From assembly GCF_022532105.1 (NCBI RefSeq), contig NZ_CP092832.1, positions 1,951,001-2,015,000 on the forward strand: a DNA stretch of 64,000 nucleotides, in the 5' to 3' direction. The position numbers were made by a program, and so were the translations under genes. Under the pieces are notes generated by a model. It was not told the DNA's origin and searched no databases. It worked only from the letters and a program-made list of their open reading frames with translations. This stretch comes from Flavobacterium sp. HJ-32-4. GTDB taxonomy: Bacteria; Bacteroidota; Bacteroidia; Flavobacteriales; Flavobacteriaceae. Positions 47,828-62,966 of the stretch are shown here, piece after piece (positions within the stretch are counted from its first letter, which is position 1; each line of letters opens with the position of its first letter).

Positions 47828-48535
47828 ACTGTTTTAAAATTAGAACTGTTAATCGATGGGCAAATATTGTATCTCAATTCTTATTACTATCACTATTTAT
47901 CATTTTTTTAATAAATAAGATAGCGTATTCATAATTAAACACCTGATTTTCAAAACATAAATGACAGATTCTATTTTATATTGCATAATTCGCAACAAAC
48001 ACACCTTCTTTTCTGCCACCACCACGCCCTGTTTTTTTGCCGGAAGGCTTGGGTGGTGCGATTCGGGGTCTAAAAAAATGCCGAAAGGCCCTGGTGGTCA
48101 CCACCGGACGGTTTCGGCGCGCCGAAAAGGCAGGGTGGTCGCCACCCGGTTGTGCTGTTTTTTAAAAATGCTCCGGTGGCCGCCTATAAGCCTTGCGGGC
48201 GCGTGGAAAGGGCGCGGTGGGGTGGAAGGGGGCCGTTGGGGAGGTTGCTTACTGCCATCTGGATCGATTGGTAGACGTTCACCACAATCGGGAAGACATT
48301 ATTACCCTACGGGAACAAACCGCGGGAGGTGAGGTGTATTTCGGAATAAATTTGTACTTTCGGTGAGTTGCGGGACGTACAGAATAATTTTTCTAAGGTA
48401 TTACTGGGTTTCTAAAACTGACGTCAACTCAATATTCTGGATTCCTTAAGTTCGTTGAAATAATCGGTTGTTCCAGAAAGCTGTTTACGAGACGATACCA
48501 GTATTAGGTTGAGAAGTATATGAATTATAGAAGAA
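47828..48535. other. Gene-free left border of island with palindrome cluster
   Basis: Composition swings from AT-rich (47840-47990) to GC-rich (48010-48270) to AT-rich again. Palindromes: GGTGGT-C-ACCACC (48093-48105), TTTCGGCGCGCCGAAA (48112-48127), GGGTGG-TCG-CCACCC (48133-48147). A frame of 123 codons from 47961 crosses them but its composition does not look coding. The direct repeat at 48308 follows. Confidence 0.6.
48308..48374 (+). repeat. Direct repeat with promoter, copy 1
   Basis: TACGGGAACAAACCGCGGGA ... then TAAATTTG (48347-48354, exact -7 box), TACTTTCG and GTTGCGGG. Recurs at 50390-50457. Could drive the gene pair starting at 48536. Confidence 0.65.
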
Positions 48536-49150
48536 ATGAAACTATATTTGATGAAGAAATATTTTAAAAAATTAGTTGAGCCACTAGACACCATTACATC
48601 AGAAAAAAAATTTTTTTTGATCTGGTTTATCTTCACAATTCTTGCAGGGCAATTGGGTTTTATTACCAATATAATTCTTAAGAATAGCTATAAACAAATT
48701 TCTATTATAGAATCTCTTTTTCAGGAAAGTAAGAGTGGCAATTTTTATGTCTATTCAATAGCTTTATTCGCTTCTACTCTAGGATTACTTTTTATAAATA
48801 TCATTGAGAGAAACCCAACCAACTTTAAAGCTTTTAAAGTCTTTCTGCTCATATTAACAATTTTTAGCCTATTTTTTGCTGGGATATATTATTCTTCTGC
48901 GACTTTAAAAACACTCGAAAATAGCCATGAAAGCTTGGATCCCGTTGTAATTGATTGGCCTCAATTATTTTTTTTACTATTGTCCATAATTTTCGGAATC
49001 TACACCTATTGCATTACACGAATGGACTTAAATTATGAGAGATATAAGCACCTAGACGATAACTATGCCGAAAAAGATGATAAAAATGTAGAAAAGTTAG
49101 AAAATAGAGTAAGTGTTGTAAATGCCGACGGAAAGGGAAACAGATTATGA
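48536..49150 (+). CDS. Four-helix membrane protein paired with DGQHR gene
   Basis: 204 residues with four membrane helices (FLIWFIFTILAGQLGFITNII; FYVYSIALFASTLGLLFINII; VFLLILTIFSLFFAGIYY; LFFLLLSIIFGIYTYCI) and a charged cytosolic C-terminal tail with coiled-coil character (NYERYKHLDDNYAEKDDKNVEKLENR). ATG at 48536 or five codons later (MKKYF). Its stop overlaps the next start by 4 nt (ATGA), so the two are translationally coupled. No family recognised. In defence systems, small membrane proteins in such pairs are often effectors; that is analogy only. Confidence 0.65.
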   Translation: MKLYLMKKYFKKLVEPLDTITSEKKFFLIWFIFTILAGQLGFITNIILKNSYKQISIIESLFQESKSGNFYVYSIALFASTLGLLFINIIERNPTNFKAFKVFLLILTIFSLFFAGIYYSSATLKTLENSHESLDPVVIDWPQLFFLLLSIIFGIYTYCITRMDLNYERYKHLDDNYAEKDDKNVEKLENRVSVVNADGKGNRL

Positions 49151-50202
49151 TTAGTTTAAAATACATAGAGATTGAGCAGCCTATAGGATCATTCTATTTT
49201 ACTAAAATGAAGGCTACAACTTTAGGGGAATTGGTGAACATTACTCCTAGATCTGCCGATCCAAGTGCAATACAGAGAGATGAATCTAAAGATAGGATTA
49301 CCGAAATTGCCAAATATTGTTCTGACCCTGATGCAACGTTCCCAACGCCAATTATTGTCGGCATCTATGACAACGTGTCCTATCAAATAAAGGATACAGT
49401 TATAGAATTTGAAAGTAATCAGACAATTGGCGAAGTTATAGACGGTCAACACAGATTAAAAGGGCTTTTAAAGTCGAATTTTGCGGAAAGATTTGAACTT
49501 CCTGTAGTATTGCTTTTCGATTTAACAGAAGAAGAAAAAGCATATATATTTTCGATCATAAATAGCAAACAAACCAAAGTTAGTATGAGTCTGATATATG
49601 ACTTGTTTGCATTATCCAGATATAGAAGTCCACAAAAGACTGCGCATGAAATTGCTAGATCATTAAATAAATATCCTGAATCTCCGTTTTTCAATAGGCT
49701 AAAAATGCTTGGAAATAAGGAAGAAAGTCAAGAAAAGGCTACCTTATCACAAGGAACGTTCGTAAAGCATTTTATTGAACTATTATCAAAGGATCCAGAT
49801 GATGATTTTAGAAAATCTAAAAATAATGTTCCTCTGACTCAAATTCAAAGTTTACCACTTCGACAGTATTTTCTCGACGGTCAAGACGAGATAATACTAA
49901 AGATAACTTTGAATTTATTTAGTGCTTTAAAAGATGTATTCATGGATCTTTGGGAAAATCCGTCGAAGAATATCTTATGGAAATCCACTGGCTACGTTGC
50001 AATTATCAAGTCTTTTGATGAATTATATAGAATCGGTGATTCCAATAATGACTTATCTAAGAACTTCTTTAAAGATTGTTTTGCGAAGTTCAGAAACAAA
50101 CTCGAAGAACAAGGGTTAACGTTAACAAGTCAACATTTTCCTTCCAATGCGCAACAACAGGCCAGACTTAGTAAAATTTTAATAGATTCGATAAAGTCTT
50201 AG
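49147..50202 (+). CDS. DGQHR-domain protein (DndB-like)
   Basis: 351 residues. The signature VIDGQHRLKGL is at 97-107 and the second conserved motif INSKQTKVS at 138-146. DGQHR proteins include DndB of phosphorothioation systems and DpdB of deazaguanine systems, and are related to the DGQQR (DUF262/ParB-like) fold that can bind or hydrolyse nucleotides. No dnd genes are near. N-terminal LPxxxF-like strands and helical C-terminal half otherwise featureless. Coupled to the membrane protein before it. Confidence 0.8.
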   Translation: MISLKYIEIEQPIGSFYFTKMKATTLGELVNITPRSADPSAIQRDESKDRITEIAKYCSDPDATFPTPIIVGIYDNVSYQIKDTVIEFESNQTIGEVIDGQHRLKGLLKSNFAERFELPVVLLFDLTEEEKAYIFSIINSKQTKVSMSLIYDLFALSRYRSPQKTAHEIARSLNKYPESPFFNRLKMLGNKEESQEKATLSQGTFVKHFIELLSKDPDDDFRKSKNNVPLTQIQSLPLRQYFLDGQDEIILKITLNLFSALKDVFMDLWENPSKNILWKSTGYVAIIKSFDELYRIGDSNNDLSKNFFKDCFAKFRNKLEEQGLTLTSQHFPSNAQQQARLSKILIDSIKS

Positions 50203-50671
50203 GACGGATACTCCTTTTCCCGCTGGCGCCCTCGTATCGCTCATCACTGAATTAATCAATCGCTAGAATGGAGTGATGATTGTTGTAGTAGTCTCTGGCA
50301 ATACTAAATTTTCAATCACTCTTGAGACGATGAAACCCGCTTCCCGCCGACCGGCTGCTCTTGCAATTTCAGGCGGTATCACGTGACGCTACGGGGACAA
50401 ACCGCGGGAAGTAAGCAGGTTCTTCTGAATAATTTTGTACTTTCGTGTGGTTGCGGGGGTTAGCGGTGAACATTTGCACTCAGAAACAGAAAAAACGGTT
50501 AGATGTGTGTGAAGCATCCGCCTATACGAATAAAGAGGGTGGGTGTGCGTAAGTTTATGGTACATAGACTCTAGTTATGCGAAATTTCTAAAACCTTTGA
50601 ACTGCTTAAAAAATTCCGCATAATACGTTAATATTGCAAACACCCATATATAATTGTTCATCTGAACGTTA
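50203..50671. other. Intergenic region with REP-like site and direct repeat copy 2
   Basis: REP-like CCCGCTGGCGCCCTCG (50219-50234) lies 17 nt past the stop. CTTCCCGC (50340) and GCGGGAAG (50405) form a distant inverted pair. Direct repeat copy 2 occupies 50390-50457 with -7 box TAATTTTG (50430-50437). A perfect GTTCA-TC-TGAAC palindrome (50656-50667) ends 4 nt before the methylase ATG. No gene seen. Confidence 0.6.
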
Positions 50672-51478
50672 ATGAGCGAAATTAGAGTAAAGCCTTTTTT
50701 AAGATGGGCCGGAGGCAAACGTTGGTTTCTAAAAGAGATCGACCGCCTTGTAAATTTTGATTACAATACCTACCATGAGCCATTCCTAGGTGGAGGTTCA
50801 GTTTTCTTCCATCTCCGACCAAGTTTTGCAAATATTTCAGATTCAAATCGAGAGTTGATTAATGCATACGTTCAACTACGGGACAACGTTGATGCGGTTT
50901 TAACCTCCATGCGAGAATTTCAAAACACAGAAGAGTTTTATTATCGAATAAGATCGGTGAGGTTCGATAATCCTATTGAGGAAGCGGCAAGATTTATATA
51001 TCTAAATCAGACATCTTATAATGGTGTCTATCGAGTCAATTCCAACGGGAAGTACAACGTTCCATATGGTCATCGAAGTAAACATAGAATTGACTATGGC
51101 AACATGATTAAGGTAAGTGAAGTACTTCAAGGAGCTGATATCAATGCCAATGACTTTGACTTTGCAACTGATAATGTTAGAGCGGGAGATCTGGTATTTC
51201 TTGATCCACCCTATACAGTCGCCCATAATAATAACGGATTCATTCAATATAATCAACGCTTATTCTCACTTGAAGATCAGCATAGGCTTCTAACTTATAT
51301 TGAAAGAATTAAAGCTAATGGCGCATACTATATAATGACCAATGCGGCGCATTCTGCAATCAGGGAAATATTTTTTAATGGAGATAATTGCTACGAATTA
51401 AATCGAGCGAGTTTAATTGGAGGAAAAAATGCAGTGAGGGGAAAATACGCTGAATTAGTATTAACAAACTTGACCTAA
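50672..51478 (+). CDS. Dam-type adenine-N6 DNA methyltransferase
   Basis: 268 residues, D12 class. KPFLRWAGGKRW (residues 7-18), the AdoMet motif HEPFLGGGSVFF (35-46), YLNQTSYNGVYRVN, and the catalytic DPPY at 178-181 are all intact, as in Dam and M.DpnII, which modify GATC. Target specificity here is inferred, not seen. The next gene begins 3 nt after the stop, so the methylase and the nuclease-DGQHR-HEPN protein form an operon. AT-rich, hence probably acquired. Confidence 0.92.
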   Translation: MSEIRVKPFLRWAGGKRWFLKEIDRLVNFDYNTYHEPFLGGGSVFFHLRPSFANISDSNRELINAYVQLRDNVDAVLTSMREFQNTEEFYYRIRSVRFDNPIEEAARFIYLNQTSYNGVYRVNSNGKYNVPYGHRSKHRIDYGNMIKVSEVLQGADINANDFDFATDNVRAGDLVFLDPPYTVAHNNNGFIQYNQRLFSLEDQHRLLTYIERIKANGAYYIMTNAAHSAIREIFFNGDNCYELNRASLIGGKNAVRGKYAELVLTNLT

Positions 51479-51481
51479 CAT

Positions 51482-53827
51482 ATGGCTTATATTGATCAAA
51501 TAAAAGTTGTTGAGATTGAGAAGCAAATTACAGCTGATCCCGTATTCTTAGGGAAGCTTTATCAAGCTAAAAAGAATGAATATCAAGTGCAGACCGTTGA
51601 TCACAACATGGTTGACACCTATCTTAAGGATGGATGGGAAGTTTATGGAAAGTCTCTAAAAACCAAAACGAGAATAAGAAAGTTAAAGTCTCACTCAAGA
51701 AAATTTGAAGATGACATGTGGTGTCAAATGTACGAACTTGGTTACCGGACACTAAACATCAGTGAGAATCTGCATCTGAATTTCACTAATGATGATAAAA
51801 AGCAGATTGATGTGATCGCGATAAATGAGGACACAGCAATCATAATTGAATGTAAGTCAAGCGAAAAATTTAAAAAAGCCAGTAGCCTTAAAGATGAGTT
51901 TGAATTGTTGGGAATGCGGTTAGACGGTTTTAAAAAAACGTTGCATCAAATCTACGGCAGAAACCTACGCGTAAAATTTATTTTCGCTACCCGAAACTTA
52001 AAAATCGATATGGATGGTGAAGATATGAAGCGATTGCTTAATACTAATTCATTCTACTATAACAATAACACATATAAATATGTCGACGACTTGATAAGAA
52101 ACTATAAGCATGTAGCTTTTTATCAATTTTTAGGTTTACTATTTAAAGGAGAGTTGATAAGTAGAGATAAAATCGAAATTCCGGCAGTTAAAGGGGAAAT
52201 GGGGACCAAGACCTATTATATGTTCTCAGTTGAACCTGAAATATTGTTAAGAATGGGATTTATTCTTCATAGAACAAAAGTAAATGAATCGGAATTTCCA
52301 ACATACCAACGGCTATTGGTGGCCAAACGATTGCCAGGCATAACAAAATTTATTGACGGTGGCGGCTATTTCCCAAATTCTATAATAATTAACTTCAACA
52401 GCAGAAAACACAAAATCCAATTTGAAGCATCATCCAAATCTGGCGACTCCAATTCCTGTTACGGAACTCTTAAAATACCAAATAGTTATGCAATTGCCTA
52501 TATAATTGATGGGCAACATCGCGTTTATGGCTATGCAAATTCGAAGTTTAGAAATTCAAACACAATTCCAGTTGTTGCTTTTGAAAATTTAGATACGAGC
52601 GATCAGTTGAAAATTTTCATGGACATTAATGAAAATCAAAAAGCGGTAAGTCCAAGTTTGAGGCTTGATCTCGAAGAAGATCTTTATTGGAACTCTGACC
52701 GAACTGATTCCAGAATAAAAGCGCTCAGATCATCCATTATAAAAGAGTTGGCCAATAATCAAAACAGCCCACTATATGAAAGAATTTCAGTTGGCGAGGA
52801 CAAATCTCTTTTATCATTCCAACCATTTTCGAATGCTTTGTCCGCGTCAAATTTGTTACCTAAAGCAAAAGGTAACTCGTTCACCGATGAAGCTCACAAA
52901 TATTCCTTATATAACATCTCAAACCATGATCATAATGCTGAGATGATTATTTGTAAAAAGAGAATATTCTCTTTACTCGCTAAATGTTATGATTTTGCCG
53001 AGCAGAGCTTCAATGGCCTATACAATATTGAGAAGTCCCTAATACTTTCTAATAGAGGCACATATCCCTTTATTTGTGTCATTGACAGCTTAAATAAGTT
53101 TTTAACCGATAAGAATGTTGTATTTAAAACAACCGACGAAGCAACGCGTTTCGAGAAGTTAAAACCTTATTTAAATTCATTACTCCACTATTTGCAAAAC
53201 GAAATTACCGAGGATGAGAAGGATAAACAACTATCCCTTTTGGGCGGTGGAGTTGAAACCAAGTGGTTACGGTTTTTTCAAAGTATCATACACAAAAAAC
53301 ATGAAGAATATTTTCCTGTAGAATTGGTAAAATGGCTTGAAACTCAAGATGAAGAGCTACAAAATAAGGGTAGAGCACTTGGAATTGAGATCGAGAAAAG
53401 GATGAAACATCTTGTCTTATCGAAGATGAAAACGATATACGGCGACGTTTGGGACTTAGAAATAAACAGTATCAAACGTGAATGCCAAAGCCGAGCCGAA
53501 CAAGAAATGGAAAAGAATTACAAGGACGGTCTTGGAAAAAAAGATATCGATTGGACGGAAATGTTTAATATAAACGATTATAAAAAAATTGTAGAGAACT
53601 ATTGGACAAAAAAGCCAGAAAATCATACGGATAACTTTGTCACTTTTGAGAAAGACTTTTCAATTGACATCGGTGAAGGCGTTGGAAGTAAAACCAAAGC
53701 ATTAAAATGGATTTCTTTTTTCAACTCTTATCGAAATGTTTGGGCGCATGAAGGCACTAAAGAGAAAAGATTAAATAGAGAGGAAGTTGAATTTATAGAA
53801 AACGTTTACAACCACTTTTATAATTAA
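51482..53827 (+). CDS. PD-(D/E)XK-like / DGQHR / HEPN fusion protein
   Basis: 781 residues with three recognisable parts. (1) Residues 75-175: a restriction-endonuclease-like core, QIDVIAINEDTAIIIECKSS, with Asp110, Glu123 and Lys125 fitting D-x12-E-x-K. (2) Residues 330-400: DGQHR domain, YIIDGQHRVYGY (DGQHR at 343-347) and DINENQKAVS at 381-390. (3) C-terminus: SYRNVWAHEGTKEKRL with Arg751-x4-His756, the RX4H motif of HEPN ribonucleases. No signal or membrane segments. A cytoplasmic nucleic-acid-acting enzyme controlled by a DGQHR sensor is a plausible reading. I know no named system with this architecture. Coupled to the upstream Dam-type methylase. Confidence 0.75.
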   Translation: MAYIDQIKVVEIEKQITADPVFLGKLYQAKKNEYQVQTVDHNMVDTYLKDGWEVYGKSLKTKTRIRKLKSHSRKFEDDMWCQMYELGYRTLNISENLHLNFTNDDKKQIDVIAINEDTAIIIECKSSEKFKKASSLKDEFELLGMRLDGFKKTLHQIYGRNLRVKFIFATRNLKIDMDGEDMKRLLNTNSFYYNNNTYKYVDDLIRNYKHVAFYQFLGLLFKGELISRDKIEIPAVKGEMGTKTYYMFSVEPEILLRMGFILHRTKVNESEFPTYQRLLVAKRLPGITKFIDGGGYFPNSIIINFNSRKHKIQFEASSKSGDSNSCYGTLKIPNSYAIAYIIDGQHRVYGYANSKFRNSNTIPVVAFENLDTSDQLKIFMDINENQKAVSPSLRLDLEEDLYWNSDRTDSRIKALRSSIIKELANNQNSPLYERISVGEDKSLLSFQPFSNALSASNLLPKAKGNSFTDEAHKYSLYNISNHDHNAEMIICKKRIFSLLAKCYDFAEQSFNGLYNIEKSLILSNRGTYPFICVIDSLNKFLTDKNVVFKTTDEATRFEKLKPYLNSLLHYLQNEITEDEKDKQLSLLGGGVETKWLRFFQSIIHKKHEEYFPVELVKWLETQDEELQNKGRALGIEIEKRMKHLVLSKMKTIYGDVWDLEINSIKRECQSRAEQEMEKNYKDGLGKKDIDWTEMFNINDYKKIVENYWTKKPENHTDNFVTFEKDFSIDIGEGVGSKTKALKWISFFNSYRNVWAHEGTKEKRLNREEVEFIENVYNHFYN

Positions 53828-53834
53828 AACTTCC

Positions 53835-53865
53835 CCCCCGCTGGCGCGAGCGTCACGCTCGTGCC
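53835..53865. repeat. REP-like palindrome
   Basis: CCCGCTGGCGCGAGCGTCACGCTCGTGCC; perfect GAGCGT-C-ACGCTC core, 8-38 nt after the preceding stop. Degenerate relatives at 50219, 55660-55692, 56687-56708, 57388-57418 and 57505-57525. Confidence 0.8.
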
Positions 53866-62571: not shown

Positions 62572-62572
62572 G

Positions 62573-62966
62573 TGGAGTCGGGGAGAATCGAACTCCCGTC
62601 CAAACAGGCAATACGAGGACTTTCTACGCGCTTAGTCCCTGATTGGGTTTTCGTCGAAAGGTGTGGCCAGGGACCGCCGCCTTCCGCTTATCCTCTTAGG
62701 TGTCCGGACCGCCACGAGGCGGAGCGATCCGTAGGTCCGTTTTTACGGTTCCCCCTGATGGAACGCCACAGACCAGGGCTTTCCGGGAGAATCCGGCCCT
62801 CCTGCCTTGCAGGAGCGCGGCTAAATCCTACTGTAATTCAGATTAAGCAGCCAGAGCGTAATTAGATTCGCCGTGTAAAGTGTTGAAACATTGGATAACG
62901 GGAGATGTTTCCGTTCCCGACGTGCTTATCGTCGCATTCGACCCGCTGTCAAAACCAGTCGACCCC
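62573..62966 (-). ncRNA. ssrA: tmRNA (trans-translation RNA)
   Basis: About 394 nt. 5' end GGGGTCG and 3' end CGACTCC-A form the acceptor stem (one G-U); the T-arm GGTTCGATTCTCCC is present. The tag frame (62872 down to 62843) reads GGC GAA TCT AAT TAC GCT CTG GCT GCT TAA, i.e. GESNYALAA, the flavobacterial type. The CCA end appears not to be encoded (CA-AG follows), so it would be added. It rescues stalled ribosomes with SmpB and marks the nascent chain for proteolysis. An exact -7 box TATCTTTG ends 7 nt before the start. Confidence 0.95.

Follow-up and report, generated by a model that had tools for sequence, protein, structure and literature searches.

Introduction

DndI, which acts with IscS-DndBCDE, combines a ParB-like ATPase with an HNH nickase in one protein and nicks DNA that lacks the mark; both its ATPase activity and its release are stimulated by marked DNA, and the R87A exchange in its DGQQR motif abolishes ATPase activity (PMC11662687). 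In SspE, recognition of the mark is coupled to GTP hydrolysis via the arginine of the same motif (R133A; PMC13251355), and a DndB-like ParB fold binds both ATP and GTP (PMC12704722). Here we describe a pair of genes located within a 64,000-nucleotide stretch of the Flavobacterium sp. HJ-32-4 genome (contig NZ_CP092832.1, positions 1,951,001 to 2,015,000; the window), the first encoding a Dam-type adenine methylase and the second a protein of 781 amino acids with a DGQHR motif (here denoted the effector). Published systems are compared on the basis of excerpts of the papers cited. Like DndI and SspE, the effector would join a ParB-like nucleoside triphosphatase (NTPase) carrying DGQ[H/Q]R to a fused nuclease and work with a DNA-marking module (PMC11662687, PMC13251355). 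It differs in that their mark is phosphorothioate and their nuclease a C-terminal HNH domain, whereas here the mark is presumably methyladenine and the predicted nuclease an N-terminal PD-(D/E)XK domain; in addition, the effector has a HEPN-like C-terminus, and HEPN is not mentioned for DndI or SspE in the excerpts.

The type IV enzyme GmrSD (DUF262-DUF1524) likewise combines a ParB/Srx-fold domain with a nuclease and is found in defence islands, and its DGQQR motif has been compared with DGQHR (PMC4619093). A survey of HEPN domains from 2013 tabulates a fusion of ParB with a Swt1-like HEPN domain, which belongs to the Abi2/Swt1 clade (Saro_3948, listed as "mostly active"), as well as operons in which HEPN genes are joined by genes for ParB and a DNA methylase; in the excerpts consulted, neither a PD-(D/E)XK part nor a D12 methylase partner is mentioned for this fusion (PMC3710099). 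One relative of the effector, SARO_RS17535, lies on plasmid pNL1 of Novosphingobium aromaticivorans, and its identity with Saro_3948 could not be confirmed. HEPN is not mentioned in the main text of a ParB-fold survey (PMC12704722), and the accessible part of a study on BREX does not show a methylase-paired three-domain system (PMC12839542). We found no description of such a family in the open-licence PMC literature, a search that had bioRxiv and REBASE outside its range. The initial annotation of this DNA knew of no named system with this architecture, a view that holds for the methylase-paired three-domain protein in the literature searched, as far as the excerpts go, and does not hold for its parts, given the ParB-HEPN fusion tabulated in 2013 and the gating models of DndI and SspE. 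A restriction-modification variant with a ParB-like gate, as proposed below, appears to be new, whereas the ParB-HEPN fusion and the gating logic of DndI and SspE are already known.

A Dam-type methylase gene in tandem with the effector gene

The methylase gene (positions 50672..51478, plus strand) encodes a D12-class adenine-N6 DNA methyltransferase of 268 amino acids, and is followed after 3 nucleotides, on the same strand, by the effector gene (51482..53827). The assignment to the D12/Dam class is based on PF02086 (1.6e-45) together with the catalytic motif DPPY; the TIGR00571 dam model scored 208 bits against a cut-off of 114.85, and the closest solved structure is DpnM (2dpm, 1.7e-52). 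The complete adenine methylase proposed initially, with its effector 3 nucleotides downstream, is therefore borne out by the open reading frames (ORFs) of the window and by both domain models.

To learn about the linkage of the two genes, we scanned genome contigs and collected 78 effector loci, for which gene lists were made as greedy non-overlapping ORFs rather than annotations. A D12 methylase gene lies within four genes of the effector in 72 of the 78 loci, from five phyla, and is directly adjacent in 62. The gene at position -1 is a D12 methylase in 53 of 72 cases, always on the strand of the effector, as compared to 9 of 64 at position +1. Tandem genes for a methyltransferase and a nuclease are a feature of type II restriction-modification, and the co-occurrence with Dam-type methylases anticipated by the initial annotation was recovered. 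Six loci lack the D12 gene; in four of them (L012, L014, L026, L077) the contig ends at or within the effector gene, in L080 the effector is truncated, and L004 represents a true absence, its genome carrying one D12 gene on a different contig. D12 genes were detected in 4 of 14 control genomes, indicating that they are not ubiquitous. DPPY is present in 69 of 73 members of the D12 cluster; two members read DSPY (L070, L075) and two are partial ORFs (L021, L022).

Pairwise distances of D12 methylases and effectors are correlated (Mantel r 0.54, 57 pairs, 0 of 2000 permutations as high), as expected if the pair travels together, although vertical descent alone would produce such a correlation too. 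For this test, methylases were collected by phmmer with the window enzyme, which did not find the distant D12 proteins of L030, L034 and L041; L020, L022, L056 and L072 were excluded, and 57 of the 65 remaining rows were used.

A protein search returned 2338 relatives at E<=0.001, a number that may include proteins sharing the DGQHR domain alone; the 120 matches listed, own entry excluded, are 58-82% identical to the effector and nearly all full length. In genome samples not picked by sequence pattern, the effector is present in 3 of 395 genomes of the phylum and 2 of 150 of the genus, the Flavobacterium sp. HJ-32-4 genome being counted in both. All three other genomes have a D12 neighbour; one of them, G413, has the same identity as L005 (62%) and may belong to its species. 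The effector family is thus patchy yet spread over five phyla. Among viral contigs there were two pattern matches, neither of them confirmed, and four matches in phage records cover 26-30% of the query, within the DGQHR region. A Phyllobacterium plasmid carries an apparent effector remnant comprising the C-terminal part only (L083, 8097-8750); it was rejected as a split gene, as only a 654-nucleotide C-terminal gene is annotated there.

Predicted domains of the effector

We examined the fold of the effector by structure prediction and by domain scans of its relatives. The AlphaFold2 model (m8cc7922e8b21; predicted local distance difference test score 87.4, predicted template modelling score 0.70) and the homologues divide the protein into a PD-(D/E)XK part, a ParB-like DGQHR part, a helical region and a HEPN-like part. 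The prediction supports a PD-(D/E)XK nuclease fold for residues 71-204 (51692..52093, plus strand, as are all positions given for the effector), with the D-x(n)-(D/E)-x-K pattern of this superfamily formed by D110, E123 and K125 (codons 51809-51811, 51848-51850 and 51854-51856). Residues 238-387 (52193..52642) are likewise supported as a DGQHR domain with the NTPase fold of ParB and DndB, the predicted ParB N-domain fold being that of the ParB-CTPases; DGQHR itself is at residues 343-347 (52508-52522) and NENQK at 52628-52642. Less firmly, residues 607-781 (53300..53824) are predicted to be a HEPN domain of the Swt1/Abi2 kind, in which RNVWAH (R751-H756, 53732-53749) corresponds to the RX4-6H motif of HEPN proteins.

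The TIGR03187 DGQHR model matched the effector with 132.7 bits against a cut-off of 58.85, indicating that the motifs are not chance patterns, and PF14072 matched as well in the Pfam scan. With Foldseek, the full model gave ParB as the top match (E 0.015), while for the C-terminal model the top match was an unrelated protein at E 4.7. Weak Pfam matches to DUF4264, MDN1_4th and CitX were judged to be chance, and three designed helical binders, the sole matches of the family profile to PDB sequences (E 0.12-0.21), were discarded for the same reason.

All motifs named in the initial annotation, including NENQKAVS at residues 383-390, were found at their positions, and both its DGQHR domain and its endonuclease-like fold are backed by the domain score and the predicted structure, respectively. 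The C-terminal claim fared less evenly; a HEPN-like fold is predicted, less firmly than the others, and an active RNase as a property of the whole family is not upheld (see below). Two outcomes had been named beforehand as speaking against that annotation, namely wrong folds at these places and homologues mostly without a methylase, and neither occurred.

Conservation across the effector family

Among 54 close relatives, which represent the subfamily of the window protein, R751 and H756 are invariant and D110, E123 and K125 are at least 90% conserved. In the wider family, the motifs differ in their conservation. DGQHR is present in all 78 rows with letters at the site and INENQ[KQ] in 79 of 79, whereas the complete D/E/K triad is found in 60 of 75 rows, the window copy included, and RX4H in 24 of 75. 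The triad and the C-terminus were each scored in 75 of the 79 effector rows, truncated copies being dropped, and the figure of 24 is a hand count, the script pattern having given 25 through an off-site match in L018. With RX4H in so few rows, RNase activity cannot be common to all members of the family.

Both nuclease signatures are missing in some lineages, most clearly in ten relatives linked to genes of the DISARM defence system, none of which has the complete triad or RX4H; among the 65 other rows the triad is incomplete in five. A tree of 68 of the 79 rows, from which truncated copies and near-duplicates were excluded, places the DISARM-linked copies in a clade of single origin with full support, and the loss of nuclease signatures there therefore counts as one event. 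RX4H requires at least three changes on the tree, and two plasmid relatives that the tree does not include have retained it (RQYTAH and RTVTHH), so the motif is probably ancestral and was lost more than once, although gains are also possible. Judged from these alignments, the invariant heart of the effector is the putative ParB-like DGQHR switch, and the nucleases appear replaceable; this is the chief correction to the initial annotation. Sets A2, A3 and A4, chosen from the matches, held 96, 66 and 67 sequences.

Locus variants and comparison with described systems

Five variants were distinguished among the loci. The window has the simplest (variant a), a bare methylase-effector pair. Variant b is a mostly Bacteroidales clade of nine, with DUF7226 within six genes in five loci, a ResIII-type helicase in seven and, in one locus, also an N6/N4 methylase. 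In variant c, the order is effector, D12, DUF7226 (nine loci, including two near-identical pairs). A gene for DUF7226 (PF23871, about 150 amino acids) recurs as the third member of the locus in 14 of 78 cases (L016-L018, L020, L021, L060, L061, L063, L064, L066, L067, L069, L071, L076), with the domain confirmed for L016 and L060. DUF7226 also shows resemblance to the C-terminal portion of a PADLOC model for a type II restriction enzyme.

Variant d comprises the ten DISARM-linked relatives, all Bacillota (L036, L044, L046, L049-L053, L059, L079), in which three conserved genes precede D12 and effector. PADLOC, used on the one copy scanned (L036), named this trio DrmA (4e-145), DrmB (9e-51) and a NERD-helicase, giving the order DrmA, DrmB, NERD helicase, D12, effector. 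A DISARM-linked relative of the effector matched DpdB, DndB and, weakly, PDC-M34B in PADLOC. A DGQHR protein is not among the named parts of DISARM in the excerpts available (PMC9142583). The window locus differs from variant d, as inspection of its ORFs of at least 80 amino acids between 44 and 60 kb, seven of them scanned with Pfam, revealed neither DrmA nor DrmB.

In variant e, a DpnII-type endonuclease, an N6/N4 methylase and D12 are found beside the effector (L070, L075, L056); Pfam confirms this for L070 and partly for L056, and the remainder is based on clustering. The two D12 methylases reading DSPY belong to these DpnII-type loci. The window pair resembles type II restriction-modification of the DpnII kind in having a DpnM-type methylase beside a gene with a nuclease domain, and some relatives adjoin DpnII-type genes; it differs in the ParB-like core and the HEPN-like domain of the effector, which did not match the DpnII endonuclease family in the Pfam scan. 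A type I R subunit is encoded near one locus. The neighbourhood of other defence genes, as proposed initially, was thus seen in part of the loci.

With DndB, DpdB and other DGQHR proteins the effector shares the PF14072 and TIGR03187 domain, and DpdB was its sole match in PADLOC. However, it scored far below the equivalog cut-offs, with 39.5 bits for DndB (TIGR03233, cut-off 328) and 63.9 bits for DpdB (NF041060, cut-off 300), and it has the additional nuclease and HEPN-like domains. No dnd or dpd core genes were recognised by eye among the ORFs at 44-60 kb, seven of which were scanned with Pfam. Neither DUF262 nor HNH (DUF1524), which characterise DndI, SspE and GmrSD, matched the effector (Pfam, E<=0.5). 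GmrSD cleaves modified DNA, has a different nuclease fold and is not known to have a cognate methylase.

Two plasmid loci, L084 and L085 (pNL1 and pAtAB2-73d), carry effector relatives whose neighbours, in place of a methylase, are a radical SAM protein, an HSP90-like ATPase and a small DGQHR protein. Judging from the neighbouring genes, these could possibly represent a different DNA-marking module.

Proposed mechanism and alternatives

We favour, with modest confidence, a two-gene restriction-modification-like system in which the effector is gated by a ParB-like NTPase that reads methylation; we infer this gating, and both nuclease activities, by analogy. In the model, host DNA would be methylated by the Dam-type enzyme at the adenine of a short sequence. 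Our guess at this sequence would be GATC, from the kinship with DpnM and the loci that also carry DpnII-type genes; an attempt to derive the site from composition, by counting GATC in the window, was uninformative. The 781-residue protein would bind DNA, with the DGQHR domain binding and hydrolysing nucleoside triphosphate (NTP) as a mark-dependent switch. Unmarked DNA would then be cut or nicked by the N-terminal PD-(D/E)XK domain, while on marked DNA the NTP cycle would free the protein or restrain the nuclease. In the weakest step, the HEPN domain may aid dimerisation and, where RX4H is intact, as in the window, may cleave RNA as a back-up; it could serve as a dimerisation module, an RNase back-up or both. 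By analogy, R347 would act as the switch residue and PD-(D/E)XK as the primary effector, and methyladenine would be the mark; the model amounts to the logic of DndI or SspE in which methyladenine replaces phosphorothioate and PD-(D/E)XK replaces HNH. SspE is activated and DndI released by the mark, so that the gate might have either sign; the sign of DndI seems preferable to us, given that host DNA is what the partner methylase would mark. The methylase linkage, the defence genes in part of the loci, the predicted folds, the published functional models and the patchy distribution speak for this model; the distance correlation of methylase and effector agrees with it as well, with the caveat on vertical descent given above.

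If this model is true, the "read mark, hydrolyse, release or cut" logic of phosphorothioate systems would extend to ordinary adenine methylation, in a module found in five phyla, and the methylase-paired effector offers a test of the role of the DGQHR domain, a question left open for DndB. More tentatively, adenine methylation might be read not through direct sequence contact by a nuclease but by a nucleotide switch of the ParB type, possibly acting as a sliding clamp, which would license a DNase and an RNase in one chain, and the same module might have been plugged into DISARM, where, its own nucleases lost, it would now be a methylation-reading subunit. The DISARM-linked clade suggests such a subunit for a DISARM-like variant.

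Alternatively, the effector might stand guard, watching the methylation of the host or of a restriction-modification system and killing or arresting the cell, by its DNase, its HEPN RNase or both, once methylation disappears or the main system is blocked by a phage. The effector genes adjoining DpnII-type genes (variant e) and DISARM-like cores are consistent with this role, and HEPN and NERD parts have been proposed as suicide back-ups in Dnd systems, according to the excerpts at hand (PMC10853773). Nevertheless we regard it as unlikely, as many loci show methylase and effector only, by clustering of recurrent genes rather than full defence annotation, and as the DISARM clade keeps the gene though the motifs of both nucleases are lost.

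The same clade, lacking both nuclease motifs and having a NERD-helicase gene nearby, together with the universal DGQHR and INENQ[KQ] as against the uneven nuclease motifs, could also mean that everything turns on the ParB-like domain. As an NTP clamp or sensor loaded on DNA, it would bring in other nucleases or helicases, and the PD-(D/E)XK and HEPN folds would serve in DNA binding and dimerisation. We find this improbable, since a complete triad in most rows, the window copy among them, is hard to explain without catalysis, and the DISARM-linked loss has a single origin on the tree. That the DGQHR domain regulates the methylase and the pair serves epigenetic regulation instead of defence, for which DndB, described as an ATP-dependent negative regulator of dnd genes in the part of the source seen (PMC10853773), offers a precedent, seems to us hardly credible in view of the predicted nuclease folds on both sides of the DGQHR domain, the defence genes near part of the loci and the patchy occurrence across phyla.

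The surrounding region

Directly upstream of the methylase-effector pair we noticed a second DGQHR gene (49147-50202, 351 amino acids) and a gene of 204 amino acids (48536-49150), neither of which appeared in the initial annotation; the two overlap by 4 nucleotides. The 351-residue protein matches TIGR04172 below the cut-off and gave zero PDB sequence matches at E<=1. The 204-residue protein shows hydrophobic stretches by eye and a weak match to a phage holin, and was found in its own genome only (296 genomes of the phylum). Possibly these genes form a separate two-gene unit. We considered them as a component of the methylase-effector system and rejected this, as the 78 loci, with non-overlapping ORFs kept, contain no second DGQ[HQ]R gene.

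The GC content is 0.36-0.40 at 48-56 kb, compared to 0.45-0.57 in the remaining 2-kb steps of the window, in agreement with the AT-rich island described initially. The mobile-element traces reported with it are only partly reproduced, in that dispersed repeats are present, while no integrase or transposase was recognised by eye among ORFs of at least 80 amino acids at 44-60 kb, seven of them scanned with Pfam. The repeats (48304-48374, 50386-50457, 50218-50247 and 53836-53865) frame both DGQHR units; a 70-bp repeat has 7 matches in the genome and a GC-rich repeat of about 30 bp has 24, and several copies fall in a near-duplicated region at 2.90-2.93 Mb. Further downstream, the window contains a transfer-messenger RNA gene at 62572-62966 with the tag GESNYALAA.

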